A DNA stretch of 64,000 nt from Segetibacter sp. 3557_3 (GTDB lineage Bacteria > Bacteroidota > Bacteroidia > Chitinophagales > Chitinophagaceae). Of the stretch, positions 33,158 to 43,060 are shown in pieces; position 1 is the stretch's first letter, and every line of letters begins with the position of its first letter. The stretch covers positions 930,001 to 994,000 of the forward strand of contig NZ_SMSK01000001.1 of the NCBI RefSeq assembly GCF_004354985.1. The letters are read 5' to 3'. The notes under the pieces are model-generated. The model saw only the letters and a program-made list of their open reading frames with translations, was not told the DNA's origin and did not search any database. The translations under genes were made by a program, and so were the position numbers.

Positions 33158-33618
33158 ATGGCAAAGTATTCCAAAGCAGCTGCAAAAAAAGTAGCACAGG
33201 TAATGCATGAGCAAAAGATTGGCAATTTAAAGTCAGGATCAGGACAGAAGGTTACCAGTCGAAAACAGGCTATTGCAATAGCGCTTTCAGAGGCAAGGGA
33301 AGCTGGTGAAAAGGTTCCAAAAAAAGCACCTGCTAACAAGAGCGAAACTGCACCTAAGAAAACAACTGTAAAAAAACTGCAACTAAAAAAGCTGCAGCCA
33401 CTAGATCTTCTCCCAAAAAGGTAGTTGCAAAAAAAGCGGCAACAAAGAAAGCTGCGCTAACCAATCCTGGCTCCAAAGAAAGAGCGATCAAAAAGGCAGG
33501 AACTAAGAAACCAGCTATCAAGCAAACAGCACATAAGAAGGCAGCAAATGATAAATCAGCAGCTCCAAAGTCTGCCACGAAAAAAGCTAAGCAAGCATCA
33601 AACTCACTCAGGAAATGA
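33158..33618 (+). CDS. DUF6496 histone-like protein, interrupted by a -1 frameshift
   Basis: The N-terminal ~55 residues match DUF6496 (MAKYSKAAAKKVAQVMHEQK, then SRKQAIAIALSEAREAGEKVPKK). A Lys/Ala/Thr tail begins after residue 55. In the starting frame it ends at 33424, giving 88 residues whose last ~15 are uncharacteristic Leu/Gln-rich sequence. At an A7 run (33370-33376) the -1 frame takes over and continues the Lys/Ala-rich tail without a stop to 33618, with KKAAATRSSPKK and KKVVAKKAATKKAA-type repeats. The fused product would be 153 residues and strongly basic, like a histone-H1-type DNA-binding tail. Either one A is missing in the sequence, or slippage makes two products. Confidence 0.75.
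33370..33376 (+). other. A7 slippery site in the DUF6496 gene
   Basis: The codons read GTA AAA AAA CTG, so the heptamer A AAA AAA is a classical slippery type. A -1 shift continues as ACT GCA ACT AAA AAA GCT into the 80-codon Lys/Ala frame. Confidence 0.6.
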
Positions 33619-33663
33619 TTGCCAGGTAAGATTAAAGTTGTAAAAGGAATTCTTGATACTTAG

Positions 33664-33691: not shown

Positions 33692-35926
33692 TTATTGTTG
33701 TTCAAGATTGGCCAGGCATGTCATAAGGTCTGCTGGTTTTTTAAAGATATCACCAAAGATGTCGCCAATTTCAGCCACACGTTTAGGGACAGTTTGGAAG
33801 GTAAAATCAAGAGGCGACAACCCTGGTTTGACTTCCTCCCAGCGCAGCGGGGTAGAAACTGTGGCTCCTTTTTTAGGCCGCATACTATATACACAGGCGA
33901 TGGTCTGCCCTTTCCGGTTTTGTAGATAGTCCATGTAGATCTTATCCTTGCTTCTCTTACTTAAACTACGTTCAAGCGTTGTTATTTCCGGTAGTTCTTC
34001 ACTCGCAAGCATACAAATCAGGTAAGCAAAATCCTTTACCTGTTCGTATGTATATTTCTTGCCCATGGGAACGTATACGTGCAAACCTGATGCACCCGAA
34101 GTTTTACAGATGCTGTAAGCACCAGCTTTATCTAGTATCTGTTTAACCGTTAATGCAGCTTCAACTACATGATCGAATGTGTTATTGTCTGAAGGGTCAA
34201 TATCGATGATCATGTAATCAGGATTATCGAGATTTTTCACCGTGGAATGCCATGGATTGATTTCGATGCAACCCATATTATTCATATAAGTGAGCGTAGC
34301 CTGGTTGTTACAAAGTATATAATCAATGGTCTTTTTTGCAGAGTCAGAATACAGGCCAATGCTCTTGACAAAATCAGGTGCTTCGTTGCCCGCATCTTTA
34401 TGAAAAAAACCTTTTGAATTAATCCCGTTAGGGGTCCGCATCAATGACTCAGGCCGATCTTTTAAATAGGGAAGAATAAATTCTCCCATGTTTATATAAT
34501 AGTCAATTACATCCCCCTTTGTCACGCCCTCATCGGGGAAGAAAATTTTTTGCCTGTTTGTTGTTTTGAATTTTATCTTTCCGAAAGTGATGATCTTATC
34601 ATTCGTTTTTTCGTCGGGTGGTTCGGCAACGGGGATCTTATTTCCGGCGTTTTCAGATGCTGGATCAGCTGTTTCAGTAACGGACTTTTCTTTTGTTTTC
34701 GCTGCTACTTCTGTAGCTGCTTTCACCGGTTTGGTGGCCTTAGGGGTTGTTTTTTTAGCCGGTTTTGCTGTTTCTTCGCTGGTTGACTTTGCCGCTTTTA
34801 ACTTCTTGGGAGGTACTGGTGCAACTGCGGAGGCATTGGATTTATCGTTTGATTTTGTTGCTTTCGCAGGTTGCTGACCAACCAGCCTTGAGGGAACTTG
34901 CTTATCGTTCATGGTAGCTTCGTTTGGCGATTTATCTTCCCGTAAGCGCAGGAATATTGGATGCCTCATTTTTCCATCAGACGTGATTTCTGCGAACTTC
35001 ATTTCTGCAACCAACACGGGCTTGACCCAGGTTACGGGCATGTTTGTTTTCACCCGCTCAGCAAACGGAGATGCTTCCTGAATTAGCGGCTGCAGCTTGT
35101 CCCACATCATTTTCAAGTTCTCCTGGTCAAAGCCGGACCCGGTGTGACCGATGTATTCCAGTTTGCCGTCCTGCATCATTCCCAAAACGAGCGCACCGAA
35201 ATATTTTCTTCCACCCCTGGGTGCGGTAAATCCGCAGATTATTGCTTCATCACTTTTATGGTGTTTTATCTTTAACCACTCGTTTGTTCGTTTACCCGGA
35301 TAGTAGAGGCTTTCCGATTTTTTTGCAATGACCCCTTCCAGATCTTTTTCCTTTGCTACTTCAAAAAAAGACTCACCTTCTTCCAACACATGATCGGAAT
35401 ATTTAATCACCTGGCTTTCGATAAATATATCCCGCAACAATTCTTTCCGTTGAATCAAGGGCATCGAGTAAAGGTCATTGCCGTTTAAGCGCAAGAGATC
35501 AAACACGTAATAAAGGATTGGCAAATGCCGGTTCTCGTCGAAGTGTTGCAGCTTCTGAAATTCGGGATTGCCTTCTTCGTTAAATACAACAATTTCACCG
35601 TCTACCACCGCCTCCACGTCCCATTTTTTCAATTCCTGTACAACTTCGGGGTATTTATCAAGGAATGAATTTCCATTCCGTGAATAGAGTTGCAAACCTT
35701 TCGAACCAAGTTCAGCTATAGCACGATAGCCGTCCCATTTAATTTCAAACAACCAATCCGCATCGCTAAATGGTTGATCAGTTTCCTTGGCAAGCATAGC
35801 AGGAACATAGTCATCCAATTTCCTGGAGTCCTTAGCTTTTGTTTTCGTTGCTTTCGCTGGCGGGGCCGGTTCCGGAACTATAGGAGGGCTTTTTTTTTTG
35901 AACCTGATTTCTGTTGTTTGAGCCAT
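33692..35926 (-). CDS. ligD: DNA ligase D, ligase and polymerase domains
   Basis: LigD repairs double-strand breaks with Ku. This 744-residue frame has the ATP-dependent ligase domain (about 37-330) with the adenylated Lys63 in EIKWDGYRA and IKHHKSDEAII. A Lys/Ala/Thr/Pro-rich linker of about 100 residues (about 350-445) follows. The primase-polymerase domain (about 455-744) carries the catalytic acidic motif IDIDPSD and GLHVYVPMG. The phosphoesterase domain that normally begins the protein is in another frame upstream, overlapping by 49 bases. The ATG at 35926 lies inside that gene, and the first 36 residues are linker-like. A single -1 shift at an A10 run would join the two into one 930-residue LigD. 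Confidence 0.9.
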   Translation of the reverse strand: MAQTTEIRFKKKSPPIVPEPAPPAKATKTKAKDSRKLDDYVPAMLAKETDQPFSDADWLFEIKWDGYRAIAELGSKGLQLYSRNGNSFLDKYPEVVQELKKWDVEAVVDGEIVVFNEEGNPEFQKLQHFDENRHLPILYYVFDLLRLNGNDLYSMPLIQRKELLRDIFIESQVIKYSDHVLEEGESFFEVAKEKDLEGVIAKKSESLYYPGKRTNEWLKIKHHKSDEAIICGFTAPRGGRKYFGALVLGMMQDGKLEYIGHTGSGFDQENLKMMWDKLQPLIQEASPFAERVKTNMPVTWVKPVLVAEMKFAEITSDGKMRHPIFLRLREDKSPNEATMNDKQVPSRLVGQQPAKATKSNDKSNASAVAPVPPKKLKAAKSTSEETAKPAKKTTPKATKPVKAATEVAAKTKEKSVTETADPASENAGNKIPVAEPPDEKTNDKIITFGKIKFKTTNRQKIFFPDEGVTKGDVIDYYINMGEFILPYLKDRPESLMRTPNGINSKGFFHKDAGNEAPDFVKSIGLYSDSAKKTIDYILCNNQATLTYMNNMGCIEINPWHSTVKNLDNPDYMIIDIDPSDNNTFDHVVEAALTVKQILDKAGAYSICKTSGASGLHVYVPMGKKYTYEQVKDFAYLICMLASEELPEITTLERSLSKRSKDKIYMDYLQNRKGQTIACVYSMRPKKGATVSTPLRWEEVKPGLSPLDFTFQTVPKRVAEIGDIFGDIFKKPADLMTCLANLEQQ

Positions 35927-36483
35927 TCATTTATCGGAGAGTCTTCATCGGTGAGATCTTCGCTGGAGTATGGTTTGGAAACCGCGTGTTTATCGTTGTG
36001 CTTAATCAACAACCAGGTGTTTTCTTCTTCTCTGCCTTTTATTTTGACCAATGCAAATTCTCCTTTTAACTTGCTTCCATTGAGGGCAACTTTCAAGTTT
36101 CCCGCTTTAAGTCCTGCCTTGAGGTTTTTCACTGCCGTAGTAAAATCTGAATTGTCGATGTCGGTATATGTTCCCTGGTCCCAAATTTCCACAATGCCGG
36201 CACCGTAACCGGAGGGAATCACTCCTTCAAAATTTTTGTAATCGTAAGGATGATCTTCGACCATCATGGCCAGTCGCTTATCTGCGGGGTTCATCGACGG
36301 CCCTTTCGGCACGGCCCAGCTTTTTAAAACACCTTCAAGCTCCAGCCTGAAATCGTAATGCAATCGTGAAGCCTTGTGACGCTGGATAACAAAAATAAGT
36401 TGATCGCCGCTTTTTGAGGTAGCGCCCGTGGGTTCAGGTGACTCCTTGAAGTTTCGTTTGTTTTTATACTCAGATAAACCCAT
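35878..36483 (-). CDS. ligD: LigD 3'-phosphoesterase domain, separate frame
   Basis: The 201-residue product is the PE domain of LigD, which trims 3' ends: FVIQRHKASRLHYDFRLE, LKSWAVPKGPS, VEDHPYDYKNFEGVIP, GAGIVEIWDQGTY and LKGEFALVKIKG. It ends SGSKKKALL-stop right after a run of ten A (positions 35899-35890 on the minus strand). Family LigD proteins in Bacteroidota are usually one chain, PE-ligase-polymerase. The split is therefore either a sequence or real indel in the A10 run, or slippage making both forms. It starts 50 bases after the ku gene. Confidence 0.85.
   Translation of the reverse strand: MGLSEYKNKRNFKESPEPTGATSKSGDQLIFVIQRHKASRLHYDFRLELEGVLKSWAVPKGPSMNPADKRLAMMVEDHPYDYKNFEGVIPSGYGAGIVEIWDQGTYTDIDNSDFTTAVKNLKAGLKAGNLKVALNGSKLKGEFALVKIKGREEENTWLLIKHNDKHAVSKPYSSEDLTDEDSPINEWLKQQKSGSKKKALL
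35890..35899 (-). other. A10 homopolymer at the LigD domain junction
   Basis: In the PE frame the codons are TCA AAA AAA AAA GCC; in the ligase frame TTC AAA AAA AAA AGC. One extra A, or a -1 slip, moves from the first frame to the second. Tracts of this length are known to allow RNA polymerase slippage. Confidence 0.6.
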
Positions 36484-36533: not shown

Positions 36534-37310
36534 CTATGACGCTTTCTTTTTCTTTCCATCAAGACTTGCCTTAAGTTGAGAAAACAGGTCTTCTTTTGCG
36601 CTGTGAACCACCTTCATTTGCGTTGCCTTAGGCTTCACACCTTTAGCTTTGTCCTGTATCAGTTTAAGAAGTTGCTCGGTATAAGTGTCTTTGTACGCGG
36701 AGATATCGAACTTTGACGTAAGCTGGTTAATCAAAGAGATAGCCATTTCAAGTTCAGCTTTTTTGATTTCTGGCTTTTCAGGTAGCTTTAATTCTTCAGG
36801 GTCACGTATTTCCTCTGCAAATCGTATCCGGTTTAGAACAATGACTTTTTCGTTTGCTCTTAATATAGCAAGCCCTTCTTTGCTTCGCATCACAAAGGTG
36901 GCAATACCTACCTTTTTCGTTTTTCTCAATGCCTCGCGCAGTAAAGCGTAAGCACGTTCGCCAGATTTATCCGGTTCCAGGTAATAAGGTGTTTCGAAGT
37001 AGACACTATCGATTTCATCTTCATTCACAAAATCGGAAATTTCGATGGTCTTGGTCTTTTTGGCATTTGCGCTTTCAAAGTCTTTATCCGTAAGAATCAC
37101 GTATTGATCGTCCAGTTTATAACCTTTCACAATACTTTCCCAGGTAACCTCTTTACCTGTGCTTTCATTTACACGCTTATATTTGATATGCGACATATCG
37201 TTTTTGTCGAGCATATCAAGATCAAGTTCGCTTCTTTGCGTAGCGCTATACATTTTAACGGGAATGTTTACCAATCCAAACCCTATAGCACCCGTCCAAA
37301 TCGGTCTCAT
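36534..37310 (-). CDS. ku: Ku protein (bacterial NHEJ)
   Basis: Bacterial Ku forms a homodimeric ring that binds DNA ends and recruits LigD. The 258-residue protein starts with [19 protein letters not shown], the Ku-core signature, and contains [25 protein letters not shown] and [13 protein letters not shown]. The C-terminus is Lys-rich (DGKKKKAS), as in other bacterial Ku proteins where the tail contacts DNA or LigD. It is first in an operon with the two ligD frames. Confidence 0.95.
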
Positions 37311-37596: not shown

Positions 37597-39177
37597 TTAC
37601 TTAGCCGGTGGCGAAATTGGTTTTAAGTTACTTAGTGCCGGTCCATTCATAACTACTCCGTTGCAGTCGAACCTGGAGCCATGACAAGGACAATCAAATG
37701 AATTTTCGTCGTCATTCCAATGTACAATACATCCAAGATGAGGACACACTGCCGAGAATGTTTGTACTATCCCTGCTTCAGTTTTGTATGCTGCAACCTT
37801 GTTAAGTCCTTTTCCTACTACAGCACCCTGACCGGGTTGTAGCTCCTCAGCGGATTTGATTTTGGCTGGTTTAATTAAATCTGTGTACTGAGCTGCCATG
37901 TTTGCGCCTTCCTTCAAGAAGTCGCCTGTAGCTTTGAGCGAAATTCTTGATGGGGAATAGAGTTTTTCATAGGGTGTGTCAATACCAAGGATAAGGTCAG
38001 ACACCAGCATTCCACCCAATGTTCCGTTTGTCATACCATTGCCTGAGTCGCCGGTAATGATATAAATGTGCTTGTCACCTGGGTTTAACCCGAGAAATGG
38101 CAAGAGGTCTACGGGTTCCATAACCTGACCCGACCAACGGTACTTAACTTCCTGCATTGCAGTAAAACGCAGCTTAGCCCAGTTTTCAAGATTTCGGTAG
38201 CGCTCTTCCTGCGAAAGATCCTCTTCATCGTGTTGCCCGGTTTTATGATCCTGGCCACCTACAATCAAAAGATCATTTGTTTCATCATAAGCCTGTAGCC
38301 GGGCGTAAGTATATGGCTGGTTCACCCATTTCGATTCACGATCACCCGTGTCCCACCACAGGGCATGCTGAACAGTTCCTTTCGGGATCGTTGCTGCAAT
38401 TACATAAGTTCTATAAGGATGTTGTTTGGTGTGAATGGTCACCCGGTCGTTTACTGGCGTATTGGTGGCAACCACAACTTCTTTTGCTGTAATCCTAAAT
38501 CCGTTAGCCACTACTTCATGCTCCTTTATTTCGGTAGCGTGTGTTTTGGTATAAATGGTATTACCAAGTGCGGTGATTGCTTTTGCAAGACCAGTTACAT
38601 ATTTAAGTGGGTGAAACTGCGCCTGCCCCGGAAATCTTAAGGCTGGTCCTTTCTCATAGGCAAGGCCAGGAATCGCATCAACAAAGCTCGACTCGATTCC
38701 TGCTTTATTTGATGCGTTATATTCTTCTTCCAGCGTTTTTATTTCATCGGTTGGATGCAAAAACAAATATCCATCGAGGATCTCGTGCTCGCAGCCGATA
38801 GACTCCTTTGCGACAACGTCGGCGATAAACTGCATGGCATCAACCTGGCTTTCTGCCGCAAGTTTGGCATTTTCTTCACCGTGCATTTTGGCAATTTCGA
38901 AATAAAAATCATCAAGTTCTTTGGCAATGTGTGCAGTGGTTCTGCCGGTTTCGCCACTGGCGATTTCGCCATCATCTATTACCACTACTTTACGCCCCGC
39001 AGTTGCAAGGCAATATGCAGCGGTTAAGCCCGAGATGCCTGCACCGATAATTAGTACATCTGTATCAAGGTCGTTTGCGAGCGGCGTAAAAGATTGCCTT
39101 TCGACGCTGTCGATCCAAAAACTCAAATGTGTGCCCGAGGTACTTGTTGTATTCTGTTCTAAAGATTCATTTATCAT
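37597..39177 (-). CDS. FAD-dependent oxidoreductase with C-terminal Rieske domain
   Basis: The 526-residue protein has a DAO-type FAD-binding N-terminus (LIIGAGISGLTAAYCLA) and GETGRTTAH. The C-terminal Rieske 2Fe-2S domain contains CPHLGCIVHW and CPCHGSRFD, giving the Cys/His ligand pairs. The arrangement matches the B. subtilis YhfW-type family, whose substrate is unknown; an amine or amino acid is possible. There is no signal peptide, so it is cytoplasmic. The start at 39177 (MINESLEQN) drops 14 residues of the longer frame. The 286-base gap to ku shows no gene. Confidence 0.9.
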   Translation of the reverse strand: MINESLEQNTTSTSGTHLSFWIDSVERQSFTPLANDLDTDVLIIGAGISGLTAAYCLATAGRKVVVIDDGEIASGETGRTTAHIAKELDDFYFEIAKMHGEENAKLAAESQVDAMQFIADVVAKESIGCEHEILDGYLFLHPTDEIKTLEEEYNASNKAGIESSFVDAIPGLAYEKGPALRFPGQAQFHPLKYVTGLAKAITALGNTIYTKTHATEIKEHEVVANGFRITAKEVVVATNTPVNDRVTIHTKQHPYRTYVIAATIPKGTVQHALWWDTGDRESKWVNQPYTYARLQAYDETNDLLIVGGQDHKTGQHDEEDLSQEERYRNLENWAKLRFTAMQEVKYRWSGQVMEPVDLLPFLGLNPGDKHIYIITGDSGNGMTNGTLGGMLVSDLILGIDTPYEKLYSPSRISLKATGDFLKEGANMAAQYTDLIKPAKIKSAEELQPGQGAVVGKGLNKVAAYKTEAGIVQTFSAVCPHLGCIVHWNDDENSFDCPCHGSRFDCNGVVMNGPALSNLKPISPPAK

Positions 39178-39349
39178 AGCAAGTAGATTGTTTATCAAAA
39201 GAGTCAATTCATATGCCATCTAACTTTTTTACCGCTATAGCTCCAGGGAAACAGTTGTATAATTGCCTGGTCTGGATGGCATGGTTTTATCTCTATTCTT
39301 CTAAACAGCATAGCTTCTCAAACCTTAATTCTCCATTTTTAAATTTATC

Positions 39350-39715
39350 ATGATGACACCTTTAAAACGGAATATGGGCCATCAGCTTACCCAATCAGAA
39401 TTGGACCAGGATGTACCCGAAAACGCGAATGATTTGACCGGAACCGCATTTATTAGCGACGACCAGCAAAGTAACGATTATGTAATTTCAGCTGTGATCG
39501 GCGGCAATAACGCAGATGATGAGGACCTTGATGATGAAGATCTTGACGACGACGACCTGGATGATGATGATGACCTGGATGTGGATGAGATAGATGTAGT
39601 GGAGGGTGATGATGACGAAGGCGTAACAGAGGTCGTACCAACAGACGATGATCTGGACGATGATGATTTATTGGATGACGATGACGACGATGATGATGAC
39701 GATGATGTTGTTTAG
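39350..39715 (+). CDS. Asp-rich acidic protein
   Basis: The 121-residue protein has an ordinary first 55 residues (HQLTQSELDQDVPENANDLT). The remainder is dominated by Asp and Glu, with DDEDLDD and DDDLDDDD type repeats and an 11-Asp run near the end. No signal peptide. It may buffer cations or interact with basic proteins, but this is inference. Acidic proteins of this kind recur in the phylum without known function. An ATG-ATG pair gives two possible starts three bases apart. Confidence 0.7.
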   Translation: MMTPLKRNMGHQLTQSELDQDVPENANDLTGTAFISDDQQSNDYVISAVIGGNNADDEDLDDEDLDDDDLDDDDDLDVDEIDVVEGDDDEGVTEVVPTDDDLDDDDLLDDDDDDDDDDDVV

Positions 39716-39751
39716 TTAACAACATGGTAGTTTATATTAAAACAAGCTAAA

Positions 39752-39782
39752 AAAAGCGCCTTGATTAAGGGCGCTTTTTTTT
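39752..39782. terminator. Bidirectional terminator overlapping the cinA-like stop
   Basis: AAAAAGCGCC / GGGCGCTTTTTT with an 8-base loop is flanked by A and T runs on both sides. The stop codon of the convergent CinA-like gene (39765-39767) lies in the loop and stem top, so that mRNA would end inside the hairpin. Confidence 0.85.
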
Positions 39783-40262
39783 GCTTACCAGGAATTGGCT
39801 CACCTCGGCAATTACCTGGTTGGCGAAATCAACCTGCGTTTCGAAACCGTCGGGCCTGGATGATGTGATTTGCTTTTCGAGAACTACTTCGTATCTAAAA
39901 GATAGCGCAAAAAACGCGTGCAATCCCTCTTCTTCACACTCAGGAACAATAGATGCGTAACCCGTAATGCCGATGCCATAATCGCTTAGAAAAAGTTTAC
40001 TTACTTCAACAGCCAGCTTCCTGGCTACTGTCTCATCGACGCTATTGACTTTTTGTGCGTGAATAGGTTCGACATTAAGATGGCGACACTTCTGCCCGAC
40101 GTTATACGCCGTTAATCCACCCTGGAAATATTGTGAAGCATCCATTCCTAAAGACATTGCAGCTTGCAGGTGACCTGAAGTAACGCTTTCAGCAACGGCG
40201 ATCGTAAGCACATGCTCTTTCAGGTAAGCGCCAATCTGGTCAGCGGAGTTTTGGTCGTACAT
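39765..40262 (-). CDS. CinA C-terminal domain protein (PncC-like amidase)
   Basis: The 165-residue protein is the stand-alone CinA C-terminal domain. Family members hydrolyse nicotinamide mononucleotide to nicotinate mononucleotide (PncC). Visible motifs are AVAESVTSGHLQAAM, with the AES serine, and YGIGITGYAS. The usual AESCTGG is changed to AESVTSG, and the highly conserved GIAGPGG-type motif reads GITGYAS, so activity is uncertain and the protein may be a divergent paralogue. Confidence 0.8.
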   Translation of the reverse strand: MYDQNSADQIGAYLKEHVLTIAVAESVTSGHLQAAMSLGMDASQYFQGGLTAYNVGQKCRHLNVEPIHAQKVNSVDETVARKLAVEVSKLFLSDYGIGITGYASIVPECEEEGLHAFFALSFRYEVVLEKQITSSRPDGFETQVDFANQVIAEVSQFLVSKKKRP

Positions 40263-40337
40263 TTTATTAGGTTTATTTAGGTTAACGTATTAACGACATT
40301 GTGGATAGCGGGATTAGAATAGCGGTATAAAAAAAAA

Positions 40338-40355
40338 GTCAGCCGTTAGGCTGAC
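40338..40355 (-). terminator. Terminator of the DUF892 gene
   Basis: GTCAGCC / GGCTGAC with a GTTA loop, followed on the minus strand by a run of nine T. It lies 22 bases past the DUF892 stop. Confidence 0.9.
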
Positions 40356-40376
40356 CCTTTTTGGACAAGCTTTAAA

Positions 40377-41144
40377 TTATGCTTCTTCATCTTCTTCGTC
40401 TTCTTCGCCGCCATCACCTTCAGTTCCTTCATCCTCCTGTTCAGCACCGATGTTAATTTTTGTTTCCGCAATCTGGGTTAGTAATTCGTCTGTTCTTTTT
40501 TCTTCATCAAGTGTTTGACCCAACAGGTTTTTCACTTCTTCAAGTCCAAGCGTTTTTGCCAGTTGAGCAAGGCTACCGTAGCTTGCGATCTCGTAGTGTT
40601 CTACTTTTTGAGCAGCCATGATCAAACCTACATCACGCGTCATCGTACCGCTTTGGGTATCCTCTATGATGCTTTCTGCTTCTTTAATGATCCCATCCAT
40701 AGCCTCGCACTTTTTACCCTGTGCCCTTTTACCCATGCTTTGGAATACTTGCTCTAAACGTGCGACTTGTTGTTTTGTTACTTCAGTATGCTCTTCAAAT
40801 GTTGTTTTAAGATCGTCAGTTGTTGCTGCTTTCCTAAGTCTTGGAAGTGTTTTCACAAGAGCTTTTTCAGCATAGTAAATATCTTTCAGGGAGTCGTAAA
40901 ACAATTTTTCCAACAATGGTCCCTGGTCTACCGTATTGTTATAAGAAGCTGCCTTTGCTGCTTTCTTTGGAGCGGCAGATTTAGCAGATGCTTTAGGAGC
41001 AGCCGATTTTGCCGAAGCCTTAGGAGCAGCCGACTTTGCAGATGCTTTTGGAGCAGCTGATTTAGCAGCAGCCTTTGGAGCAGCGGCTTTAGCTCCTTTC
41101 GGACCGCTTGATTTGGGAGGTGCTTTTTTAGTTTGCTTTGCCAT
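40377..41144 (-). CDS. DUF892 (YciE/YciF) ferritin-like protein with histone-like tail
   Basis: The 255-residue protein has three parts. Residues 1-66 are Lys/Ala/Ser/Pro-rich and contain near-identical 9-residue repeats (ASAKSAAPK), encoded by 27-bp DNA repeats at about 40960-41075. Residues 67-220 are the DUF892 ferritin-like four-helix domain (LEKLFYDSLKDIYYAEKALV, FEEHTEVTKQQVARLEQVF, AAQKVEHYEIASYGSL). The last 35 residues are acidic. DUF892 proteins bind di-iron and are induced by stress. The basic N-tail suggests DNA binding in the manner of Dps, which is inference. A 17-bp palindrome lies upstream. Confidence 0.85.
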   Translation of the reverse strand: MAKQTKKAPPKSSGPKGAKAAAPKAAAKSAAPKASAKSAAPKASAKSAAPKASAKSAAPKKAAKAASYNNTVDQGPLLEKLFYDSLKDIYYAEKALVKTLPRLRKAATTDDLKTTFEEHTEVTKQQVARLEQVFQSMGKRAQGKKCEAMDGIIKEAESIIEDTQSGTMTRDVGLIMAAQKVEHYEIASYGSLAQLAKTLGLEEVKNLLGQTLDEEKRTDELLTQIAETKINIGAEQEDEGTEGDGGEEDEEDEEA

Positions 41145-41653
41145 AATATAGATTTTACTGGTTAATAATTACGTCAACAACAGAAAAATTAATGCCACTG
41201 ATTATTAATCAGTTCTATTTTACATGATGAAAATATTCCACATGTAAATGAAGGATTAGCTTCAAGGCACTTTGCAGCGCAATAATCTTTTACATCACGA
41301 ATGAAGTATAATAAAAGTTCAGCACTATTGAAATCCTTTCTGCACCACTTCATAAGTGAAGATGGGTTTCACCTGCCACCGGGCAAAGCAGGAACGTGAG
41401 ATTGGAAGAAATCTACCCTGGCAATAATAGGCGATGTTGTTAAACTAAATCCCGGAAAACGTTCGCTCAATAGCATTACCCAAAGTACAAGAGTGCGACG
41501 CAAGGATGTTAAATAGTCCAACTTCAGCCTGGTCCAAAAAAAAATCCGAAACACCTATCGGCAACCAGGTCCTCCGTGCCGGGCAAAAGAAAATACAAGG
41601 GAAAGGATGTTAAAGTGCGTTCGGTAAATAGACCAATTTACTGGTGCAAAAAA
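41145..41653. other. Non-coding gap
   Basis: No supported gene between the DUF892 start and the DUF952 terminator. It holds the 17-bp palindrome at 41197-41213. A 32-codon frame at 41301-41399 is too weak to call. The rest has no recognisable signal. Confidence 0.5.
41197..41213. promoter_or_regulatory. Perfect 17-bp palindrome, candidate operator
   Basis: ACTGATTA-T-TAATCAGT is perfectly symmetrical and begins 53 bases upstream of the DUF892 start codon. A near-consensus box TAATTTTT lies between them on the minus strand. Position and symmetry fit a dimeric repressor or activator site. Confidence 0.5.
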
Positions 41654-41714
41654 GCCTGCCCGCACATTACCGGAGCACTGCTGAAGGTACATCGGTTGTA
41701 ATTCAGCGGCAGGC
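41654..41714 (-). terminator. Terminator of the aro operon
   Basis: The outer stem GCCTGCC (41654-41660) / GGCAGGC (41708-41714) stacks on an inner stem GCTGAA / TTCAGC (41680-41685 / 41702-41707). TTTTTT follows on the minus strand. It lies just past the DUF952 stop at 41720. Confidence 0.7.
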
Positions 41715-41719
41715 ACGAG

Positions 41720-42037
41720 TTACTTTTTGTAGTTGTTGATTTCTTTAATACTGGAAACCGCCGTGATGTTTAATGGCCCATACAGGTGTGGGAACACATC
41801 GTTACTTGCGGGCACGTATTCATACTTTAGTATAGCCTCAAGTAGGTTGGTGTTGATTTCGAGTTGCAGCAGTTCGCCGGCACCTGCAAAATAGCGGGCT
41901 AACACGCCCTCGATCTGGGTGGCGGTACAGCAATGTATAAACCCTTCACTTTCCAAAGACGGGTGTAAATAGAAGCCATCCCGCTGGTTGTTAAGCCAGC
42001 TTTTTTCATTGGTTATATGGAAAACCTTTTCGGTCAC
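41720..42037 (-). CDS. DUF952 family protein
   Basis: The 105-residue protein matches DUF952: VFHITNEKSW, SEGFIHCCTATQIEGVL and FPHLYGPL. The start is GTG at 42037, three bases after the aroC stop, so it is translationally coupled to the aromatic operon. The family is small and cytoplasmic with unknown function; no link to shikimate metabolism is established. Confidence 0.85.
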   Translation of the reverse strand: MTEKVFHITNEKSWLNNQRDGFYLHPSLESEGFIHCCTATQIEGVLARYFAGAGELLQLEINTNLLEAILKYEYVPASNDVFPHLYGPLNITAVSSIKEINNYKK

Positions 42038-42040
42038 AAG

Positions 42041-43060
42041 CTATGCAGATTGATAGACCCTTGGGATCTTTTGTTCCAGCATCATCAGGTCGGCAAGCAC
42101 TATTGCGGTAACTGCTTCCAATACCACCGGAACCCTTAGTGCTATGCATAAATCGTGACGGCCACGTACAGCAAACGGTTCTACCTGGCCGGTTTGCCAG
42201 TTCAATGTGTTCTGTTCTTTGGGGGTTGATGAGGTAGGTTTTATGGCGATCCGAAAGATAAGTTCGTTTCCGTTTGTGATACCACCTACAACACCGCCAG
42301 CATGATTCGTTGAAGTCAGTCCATCCATATTTTCGATAGGATCGTTGTGCTGGCTGCCAAACATTCGTGCGGACCAGAAACCTGTACCAAACTCTATTCC
42401 GCGAACGGCCGGAATAGCAAACACCGCATGACTTAAAACCGATTCAACAGAGTCGAAAAATGGCTCCCCCAAACCAACCGGCAAACCTGCTACCATACAT
42501 TCAACGATACCGCCAATACTGTCTTTTGCTTCAATCGCCTTTTGGAGTCCTTTTTCAATATCTGTTTCACCCCCTGCTTCTGTAACGAAAGCCCTCACCT
42601 GGATACCGGGCGAGTGTGGCAGTGGAGCAGCCAGGATACGTTTCGCGATGACACCGGCAGCAACAAGGGCTACAGTAAGGCGACCGCTGAAATGACCTCC
42701 GCCGCGGTAGTCTTCGTTACCACCATACTTTTTACTGGCGACAAAATCTGCATGACCGGGCCTTGGAACATCCCGCTGTTTCTGGTAGTCGCCACTGCGG
42801 GTATTGTTGTTTTCGAAAAGTATGGTTATCGGCGCACCGGTAGTTTTGCTTTCGAAAACACCACTTTTAAAGAAAACCTTGTCTTCCTCTTTCCTGGGTG
42901 TTGTTCCTTTGGAGCCTCCTTTACGGCGCTCGATATCTACTTCAAAATCTTCGGCAGTAAGCGGCAGGCCGGCAGGACAACCATCGATATTTATGCCTAC
43001 TGACTCACCATGTGATTCACCAAATATATTTACCCGGAATAAGCGTCCAAATGTGTTCAT
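42041..43060 (-). CDS. aroC: Chorismate synthase
   Basis: AroC makes chorismate from EPSP with reduced FMN, the last step of the shikimate pathway. The 339-residue protein shows LFRVNIFGESHG, RPGHADF, GGHFSGRLTVALVAAG and the late RGRHDLC motif, all family signatures. The start at 43060 (MNTFGRLFR) is the standard one; the longer frame adds 46 non-family residues. Third gene of aroB-aroA-aroC-DUF952. Confidence 0.95.
   Translation of the reverse strand: MNTFGRLFRVNIFGESHGESVGINIDGCPAGLPLTAEDFEVDIERRKGGSKGTTPRKEEDKVFFKSGVFESKTTGAPITILFENNNTRSGDYQKQRDVPRPGHADFVASKKYGGNEDYRGGGHFSGRLTVALVAAGVIAKRILAAPLPHSPGIQVRAFVTEAGGETDIEKGLQKAIEAKDSIGGIVECMVAGLPVGLGEPFFDSVESVLSHAVFAIPAVRGIEFGTGFWSARMFGSQHNDPIENMDGLTSTNHAGGVVGGITNGNELIFRIAIKPTSSTPKEQNTLNWQTGQVEPFAVRGRHDLCIALRVPVVLEAVTAIVLADLMMLEQKIPRVYQSA

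Follow-up and report, generated by a model that had tools for sequence, protein, structure and literature searches.

A conserved run of nine or ten A's in ligD of Segetibacter and related Bacteroidota as a probable site of programmed slippage

Described slippage systems and LigD

Few cellular genes are known in which transcriptional slippage serves a purpose. One described case is dnaX of Thermus thermophilus, where a run of nine lies in the coding sequence, stop codons of the other frames follow just past it, and the gene yields two products through slippage by insertion (PMC5009743 and PMC1088944). The Thermus dnaX transcripts have one or more extra A's (PMC5009743), and insertion is the favoured direction of RNA-polymerase slippage according to PMC6260861. 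Baranov et al. (2005; PMC1088944) regard a 9A run whose length is conserved among homologues as very likely used for purposeful slippage. A second case is the transcriptional slippage of Shigella mxiE/spa13, where the longer product requires slippage; in mxiE, one inserted nucleotide joins two overlapping open reading frames (PMC1088944 and PMC5009743). A related process is the −1 ribosomal frameshifting of Escherichia coli dnaX at the motif A AAA AAG.

The ligD locus described here resembles Thermus dnaX in the run, the nearby stops and the two products proposed for it, and resembles mxiE in having two overlapping frames that one inserted nucleotide would join. It differs from Thermus dnaX in gene and pathway, and also in its default product: the long protein is the default in Thermus, whereas the ligD default is the short one in 69 loci and the long one in 32 fused loci that have A9 or A10. 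The Shigella genes belong to a secretion system; ligD encodes a multi-domain DNA repair enzyme, and both default frames are found among its relatives.

With LigD of bacterial non-homologous end joining (NHEJ), the locus shares the same 3′-phosphoesterase (PE), ligase (Lig) and primase-polymerase (Pol) domains and a Ku gene next door; unlike that LigD, the PE domain is here in another frame, and only a slip would join it. About 6,000 complete genomes were surveyed in PMC7719229, which may not include the genomes compared here; it placed all Bacteroidetes NHEJ in the conventional class, and its main text lacks the words ‘frameshift’ and ‘split’. Searches found no paper linking LigD to transcriptional slippage or programmed frameshifting, and an earlier listing, for example in the supplement of PMC3711429, is possible. 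Programmed slippage is a known kind of mechanism; the ligD case would add an unusual twist, the frame flips described below.

The split ligD locus of Segetibacter sp. 3557_3

The window, i.e. the whole 64 kb stretch of DNA that was analysed, contains the following features.

36534-37310, minus strand: Ku gene (PF02735, TIGR02772), directly upstream of the PE open reading frame
35878-36483, minus strand: ORF 1, LigD 3′-phosphoesterase (PE) domain, 201 residues (PF13298, E = 6.1e-41; TIGR02777)
33692-35926, minus strand: ORF 2, ligase and primase-polymerase (Lig-Pol), 744 residues (PF01068, PF04679, PF21686), in the −1 frame relative to ORF 1
35878-35926, minus strand: overlap of the ORF 1 and ORF 2 frames, 49 bases
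35890-35899, minus strand: A10 run in the linker that separates PE from the ligase domain (T10 on the plus strand)
35924-35926, minus strand: ATG heading the Lig frame, a candidate start, 37 nt before the end of the A10 run

The PF13298 and TIGR02777 matches span the full length of their profiles in the PE frame. ORF 2 encodes the ATP ligase core, the ligase C-terminal domain and the LigD primase-polymerase domain (LigD_Prim-Pol), so that all three domains of the NHEJ enzyme are present with Ku nearby. The frame junction coincides with a run of the size associated with slippage in coding sequences (about nine or more A or T), and only two other A or T runs of at least nine are found in the 64 kb window, an A9 at 40329 and an A9 at 41536. 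At the junction the PE frame reads TCA AAA AAA AAA GCC CTC CTA TAG and ends at a stop codon 12 nt beyond the run, and the Lig frame reads TTC AAA AAA AAA AGC CCT. The initial annotation had reported a 49-base overlap of the two frames around the A10 run, which is exact in every coordinate. Its statement that one additional A would fuse them into a LigD of 930 residues likewise agrees with arithmetic from the open reading frames (198 + 732 residues). The order PE-Lig-Pol, which it gave as usual for the phylum, is borne out by single-frame versions in relatives and in the same genome.

The genome (35 contigs) has further ligD-like sequences. Contig C21 encodes a single-frame LigD paralogue of 926 residues, and contig C5 has a Lig-Pol open frame of 691 residues. 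Because a second, single-frame LigD is present, the split copy need not be essential, and redundancy among the LigD copies is possible. A third ligD-like gene is in three pieces near the end of contig C20 (positions 38500-43010). It was considered as a further case of the same slippage type and rejected, as no A-run of seven or more was found in the stretch; decay or assembly would account for its state.

Another broken gene is found in the window. At 33158-33620 on the plus strand, a small lysine/alanine-rich gene shifts frame at an A7 run, a break that led to suspicion of homopolymer errors. Its open frame is 88 residues in the window; among seven related loci the open frames are 172 residues in L003, 123 in L094 and 58-124 in the others. 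No A9 is present in this gene or in the seven related loci. The break is therefore outside the ligD pattern and is put down to decay or a miscount.

Frame states and A-runs among relatives

A comparison with ligD of related genomes, which the initial annotation had proposed, was made with 219 loci. These consist of 34 from relatives and the genome itself, 80 named genome loci, two own-genome stretches, 30 obtained by searching 394 genomes of the family, 60 further stretches from among the places listed in that search, and 13 obtained by searching 395 genomes across the phylum. Loci were dropped when they lacked a PE match (18), a ligase match (5), the ligase start motif (10) or the PE end motif (7), and 27 more were removed as duplicates with identical linker and class. 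This leaves 152 unique Bacteroidota ligD loci, with one genome per species. Four of the loci dropped are of the −1 split type: L027 (A10), L172 and L180 (both A9), and L010.

The 152 loci comprise 69 in which PE is followed by Lig-Pol after a −1 step, 70 fused, nine with a +1 split and four split without a frame change (+0). It should be pointed out that 69 of 152 is not a population frequency, because the loci were picked as best matches to the Segetibacter and Chryseobacterium LigD, i.e. as near relatives. In the −1 class the longest A-run of the linker is A9 in 55 loci, A10 in 13 and A8 in one. The fused class has A9 in 16 loci, A10 in 16 and shorter runs in 38. A run of at least nine is found in two of the nine +1 splits (A9 and A12) and in none of the four +0 splits. 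In the genus Segetibacter, nine of ten loci (L001-L010) are split by the same −1 step at an A9 (A10 in the window) within the overlap. The tenth, L010, is from a 71%-complete genome; here PE itself contains the frame break, and the linker, which has two A9 runs, shares the Lig frame.

These counts bear directly on the simplest alternative, that the split is a base-call or assembly error and the true gene is fused. Homopolymers are error-prone, and the gene about 2.5 kb off also breaks, at its A7 run. However, 68 of the 69 unique −1 split loci have A9 or A10, the split falls at the run and has the same direction in nine of the ten Segetibacter loci, and a miscount would alter the state of one member only, whereas both states occur in the group. 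An error, which the initial annotation had offered as the simpler alternative, thus fails as an explanation of the split, and its probability is negligible.

The +1 and +0 loci suggest that true fission also happens. A clade of one genus (g3), comprising L019, L137, L140, L147 and L151 (genomes G011, G271, G344, G312 and G149, respectively), has PE and Lig-Pol apart, in the +1 or the same frame, with a linker that has no A9; these are apparent true fissions. The longest run seen, an A12, is in the overlap of the +1 split locus L063 of Paenimyroides ummariense DS-12. The other +1 split counted with nine or more A's, L217, has no A-run of seven or more in its overlap.

Could the −1 loci also be ordinary fissions, with PE and Lig-Pol as coupled overlapping genes and the A-run a relic of the indel that split them? 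A start codon is found at the PE stop in seven of the ten Segetibacter loci, and some Lig-Pol alone may arise there by re-initiation. Both halves also retain catalytic motifs in the −1 split loci (the PE motif in 65 of 69 and the ligase motif in all 69). Yet a relic run should decay, and this one remains at nine or ten; only two of the 13 +1 and +0 splits have A9 or more, and the run is also found in 32 of the 70 fused loci. In addition, the Lig frame of 38 of the 68 split loci with A9 or more has no ATG, GTG or TTG from its opening up to the PMLA motif's Met, at the beginning of the ligase core; 47 of the 68 have no ATG or GTG there. Fission as the origin of the −1 loci is highly improbable.

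The stretch between the run and this Met is under selection. For 20 Chryseobacterium-type loci, whose kinship makes them fewer than 20 independent cases, the Lig frame gives a pN/pS of 0.40, the PE frame 1.07 and the third frame 0.98; towards the end of the stretch, a TTG or GTG occurs in five of them. As the 20 were picked as −1 splits, they show selection on the frame and not the frequency of the split. There is purifying selection on the start-less Lig-frame stretch of these loci, in the Lig frame only. Ribosomes coming from the PE frame would be its simplest source.

The genomic frame itself changes among relatives. A tree of 152 rows, made by a quick method and weak at many forks, requires 20 changes of the split label, and starred branches force at least ten of them. 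Sister loci L171 (split, A9) and L178 (fused, A10) differ in run length at the same place. In the fused loci with A9 or A10, the −1 frame reaches a stop 4-62 nt past the run and the +1 frame 4-111 nt past it, so that slipping there would give PE alone. Such flips are expected if a locus can yield both products whichever frame is its default.

Flips of this kind can also be looked at as phase variation, in which DNA replication slippage toggles a contingency locus between split and fused states with no programmed slip of transcript or ribosome. Homopolymers are mutable, and sister loci one A apart are in opposite states. Nevertheless, random indels predict −1 and +1 states in equal number, and the counts for split loci with at least nine A's are 68 and two, respectively; the two out-of-frame states are not equally tolerated. 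In one supported clade, all 20 rows (mostly Chryseobacterium) have the split and an A9, and the selection on the start-less Lig frame also argues against phase variation, which is a very improbable explanation.

How often would such runs arise by composition? The PE and ligase domain sequences of the same loci (200,817 nt) have 381 A6, 180 A7, 51 A8 and one A9, and the linkers (33,807 nt) have 105 runs of nine or more. The linker is lysine-rich and thus more prone than the domains to long A-runs, which explains part of the contrast. In the fused loci, A9 or A10 is present in 32 of 70 compared with 13.7 expected when the codon order of the linker is shuffled, and 19.4 when lysine codons are resampled with the gene's own AAA/AAG usage. 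One feature counts against the slippage reading: the base 3′ of the A9 is G in all 55 of the split loci with this run, in all three codon phases, compared with 118 of 230 for A6-A8 linker runs. Simple slippage does not account for it.

The probable slipping machine and the two proposed products

The reading that best fits the locus is programmed slippage at a conserved site, the A10 run; it is probably transcriptional and would give both PE alone and the fused PE-Lig-Pol. Judged from sequence comparison, this reading is probable. RNA polymerase copying the T10 template would occasionally insert one extra A. An unslipped transcript would give the PE domain alone, and one with the extra A the fused 930-residue LigD. 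PE alone may trim 3′ ends and the full LigD join them, with the slip setting the ratio.

Run length fits the published description of slippage sites. A9 or A10 in 68 of 69 −1 split loci and in 32 of 70 fused loci is the kind of length conservation that Baranov et al. describe, and the split loci, with 55 A9, 13 A10 and one A8, nearly fit their statement on conserved 9A runs (PMC1088944). The runs are in codon phases 0, 1 and 2 in 15, 25 and 28 of the 68 split loci, respectively. Independence of codon phase is a property of transcriptional slippage, and with all three phases in use, the constant is run length and not a codon-phased motif. The direction also matches: 68 splits by −1 compared with two by +1, all with A9 or more, are as expected of insertion-biased slippage (PMC6260861 and PMC5009743). 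On the other side, PMC6260861 reports that poly(T) is a better slippage substrate than poly(A) for E. coli RNA polymerase, which counts against a transcriptional reading.

The alternative of a −1 ribosomal frameshift like that of E. coli dnaX, on A AAA AAG or A AAA AAA, with RNA-polymerase slippage minor, has points in its favour. The ligD locus shares with E. coli dnaX the −1 step on lysine codons, and this step is seen in 69 of the 82 split loci. Every A9 has A AAA AAA in any phase, and A AAA AAG is in the PE frame in 28 of the 68 loci (26 with A9 and two with A10). The only tRNA-Lys found in this genome has the anticodon TTT, in a recovered tRNA list that is incomplete (there is no Ile and no Ala-TGC tRNA among it); PMC5009743 connects frameshifting at the E. 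coli dnaX site with the presence of a single tRNA-Lys. From the tRNA and the heptamer, −1 slippage by ribosomes is possible.

E. coli dnaX differs, however, in that ligD has no common SD-like motif or strong downstream structure, and has nine or ten A's in all phases. An SD-like motif is upstream of the run in nine of 68 loci and in six of 68 in a control window. Folding z averages −0.51 downstream of the run and −0.46 upstream of it, compared with −0.25 and +0.07 in two control windows. Thus no common strong stimulator was found in the 68 loci by scans for SD-like motifs and for pseudoknot-free folding. Folding with z below −2 is seen downstream in six and upstream in seven of the 68 loci, compared with two and one in the control windows, and from this small excess some loci may have structural stimulators. 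For a ribosomal shift, six or seven A's in one phase suffice; runs of A6-A8 are plentiful in these linkers, yet in 68 of 69 loci the run has nine or ten A's, whatever the phase. The use of three codon phases and the lack of a strong common stimulator favour RNA-polymerase slippage over ribosomal frameshifting, which is unlikely as the main source of the fusion.

The dnaX gene of the same bacteria provides a useful comparison.

G000:C5:60504-61565, minus strand: dnaX of this genome (L220; L222-L250 are the loci of relatives), with an A-run just past the conserved N-terminal domain

The 30 loci compared are from 30 of the 35 genomes in which a dnaX match was found. In this genome dnaX reads GTA AAA AAA AAG CGG at codon 417 of the open frame, with stops 9 and 20 nt past the run in the other frames. 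In 29 of the 30 loci of the order, a run of A9-A11 is present in various phases with stops near in both other frames; the thirtieth match ends 72 nt from the end of its contig. The run and stops together have the anatomy described for Thermus dnaX in PMC5009743. By this analogy, the dnaX loci suggest that the RNA polymerase of the lineage may slip on such A-runs.

The slippage reading of the initial annotation, in which RNA polymerase slips on the run and both split and fused proteins may be made, is thus supported. It gains from the conservation of the run, the three codon phases, the selection on the start-less Lig frame and the dnaX run. The split, the run and their conservation, the selection on the start-less Lig frame and the frame flips are seen in the sequences themselves; a slip by RNA polymerase and not the ribosome, the ratio of the products and the usefulness of both are inferred.

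A wider proposal is more tentative, and we hold it at somewhat less than even confidence. In much of Bacteroidota, ligD, like dnaX, may have an A9-A10 device that sets the mixture of PE and full LigD whatever the genomic frame, with the default frame drifting between species and the mixture held. If slippage at ligD is real, a DNA repair enzyme would join the users of slippage, with a site found in Chitinophagaceae and Weeksellaceae in both default-frame states. The ligD gene in such bacteria could be annotated as two genes or as a pseudogene. The loci would also represent a natural experiment on slippage freeing a gene from strict frame keeping, and bacterial end joining may regulate how much PE is made relative to full LigD. 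Under the wider proposal, expression of the gene would compensate for a frameshift across long spans of evolution, and NHEJ in these organisms would have a built-in dose control of end-processing versus end-joining.
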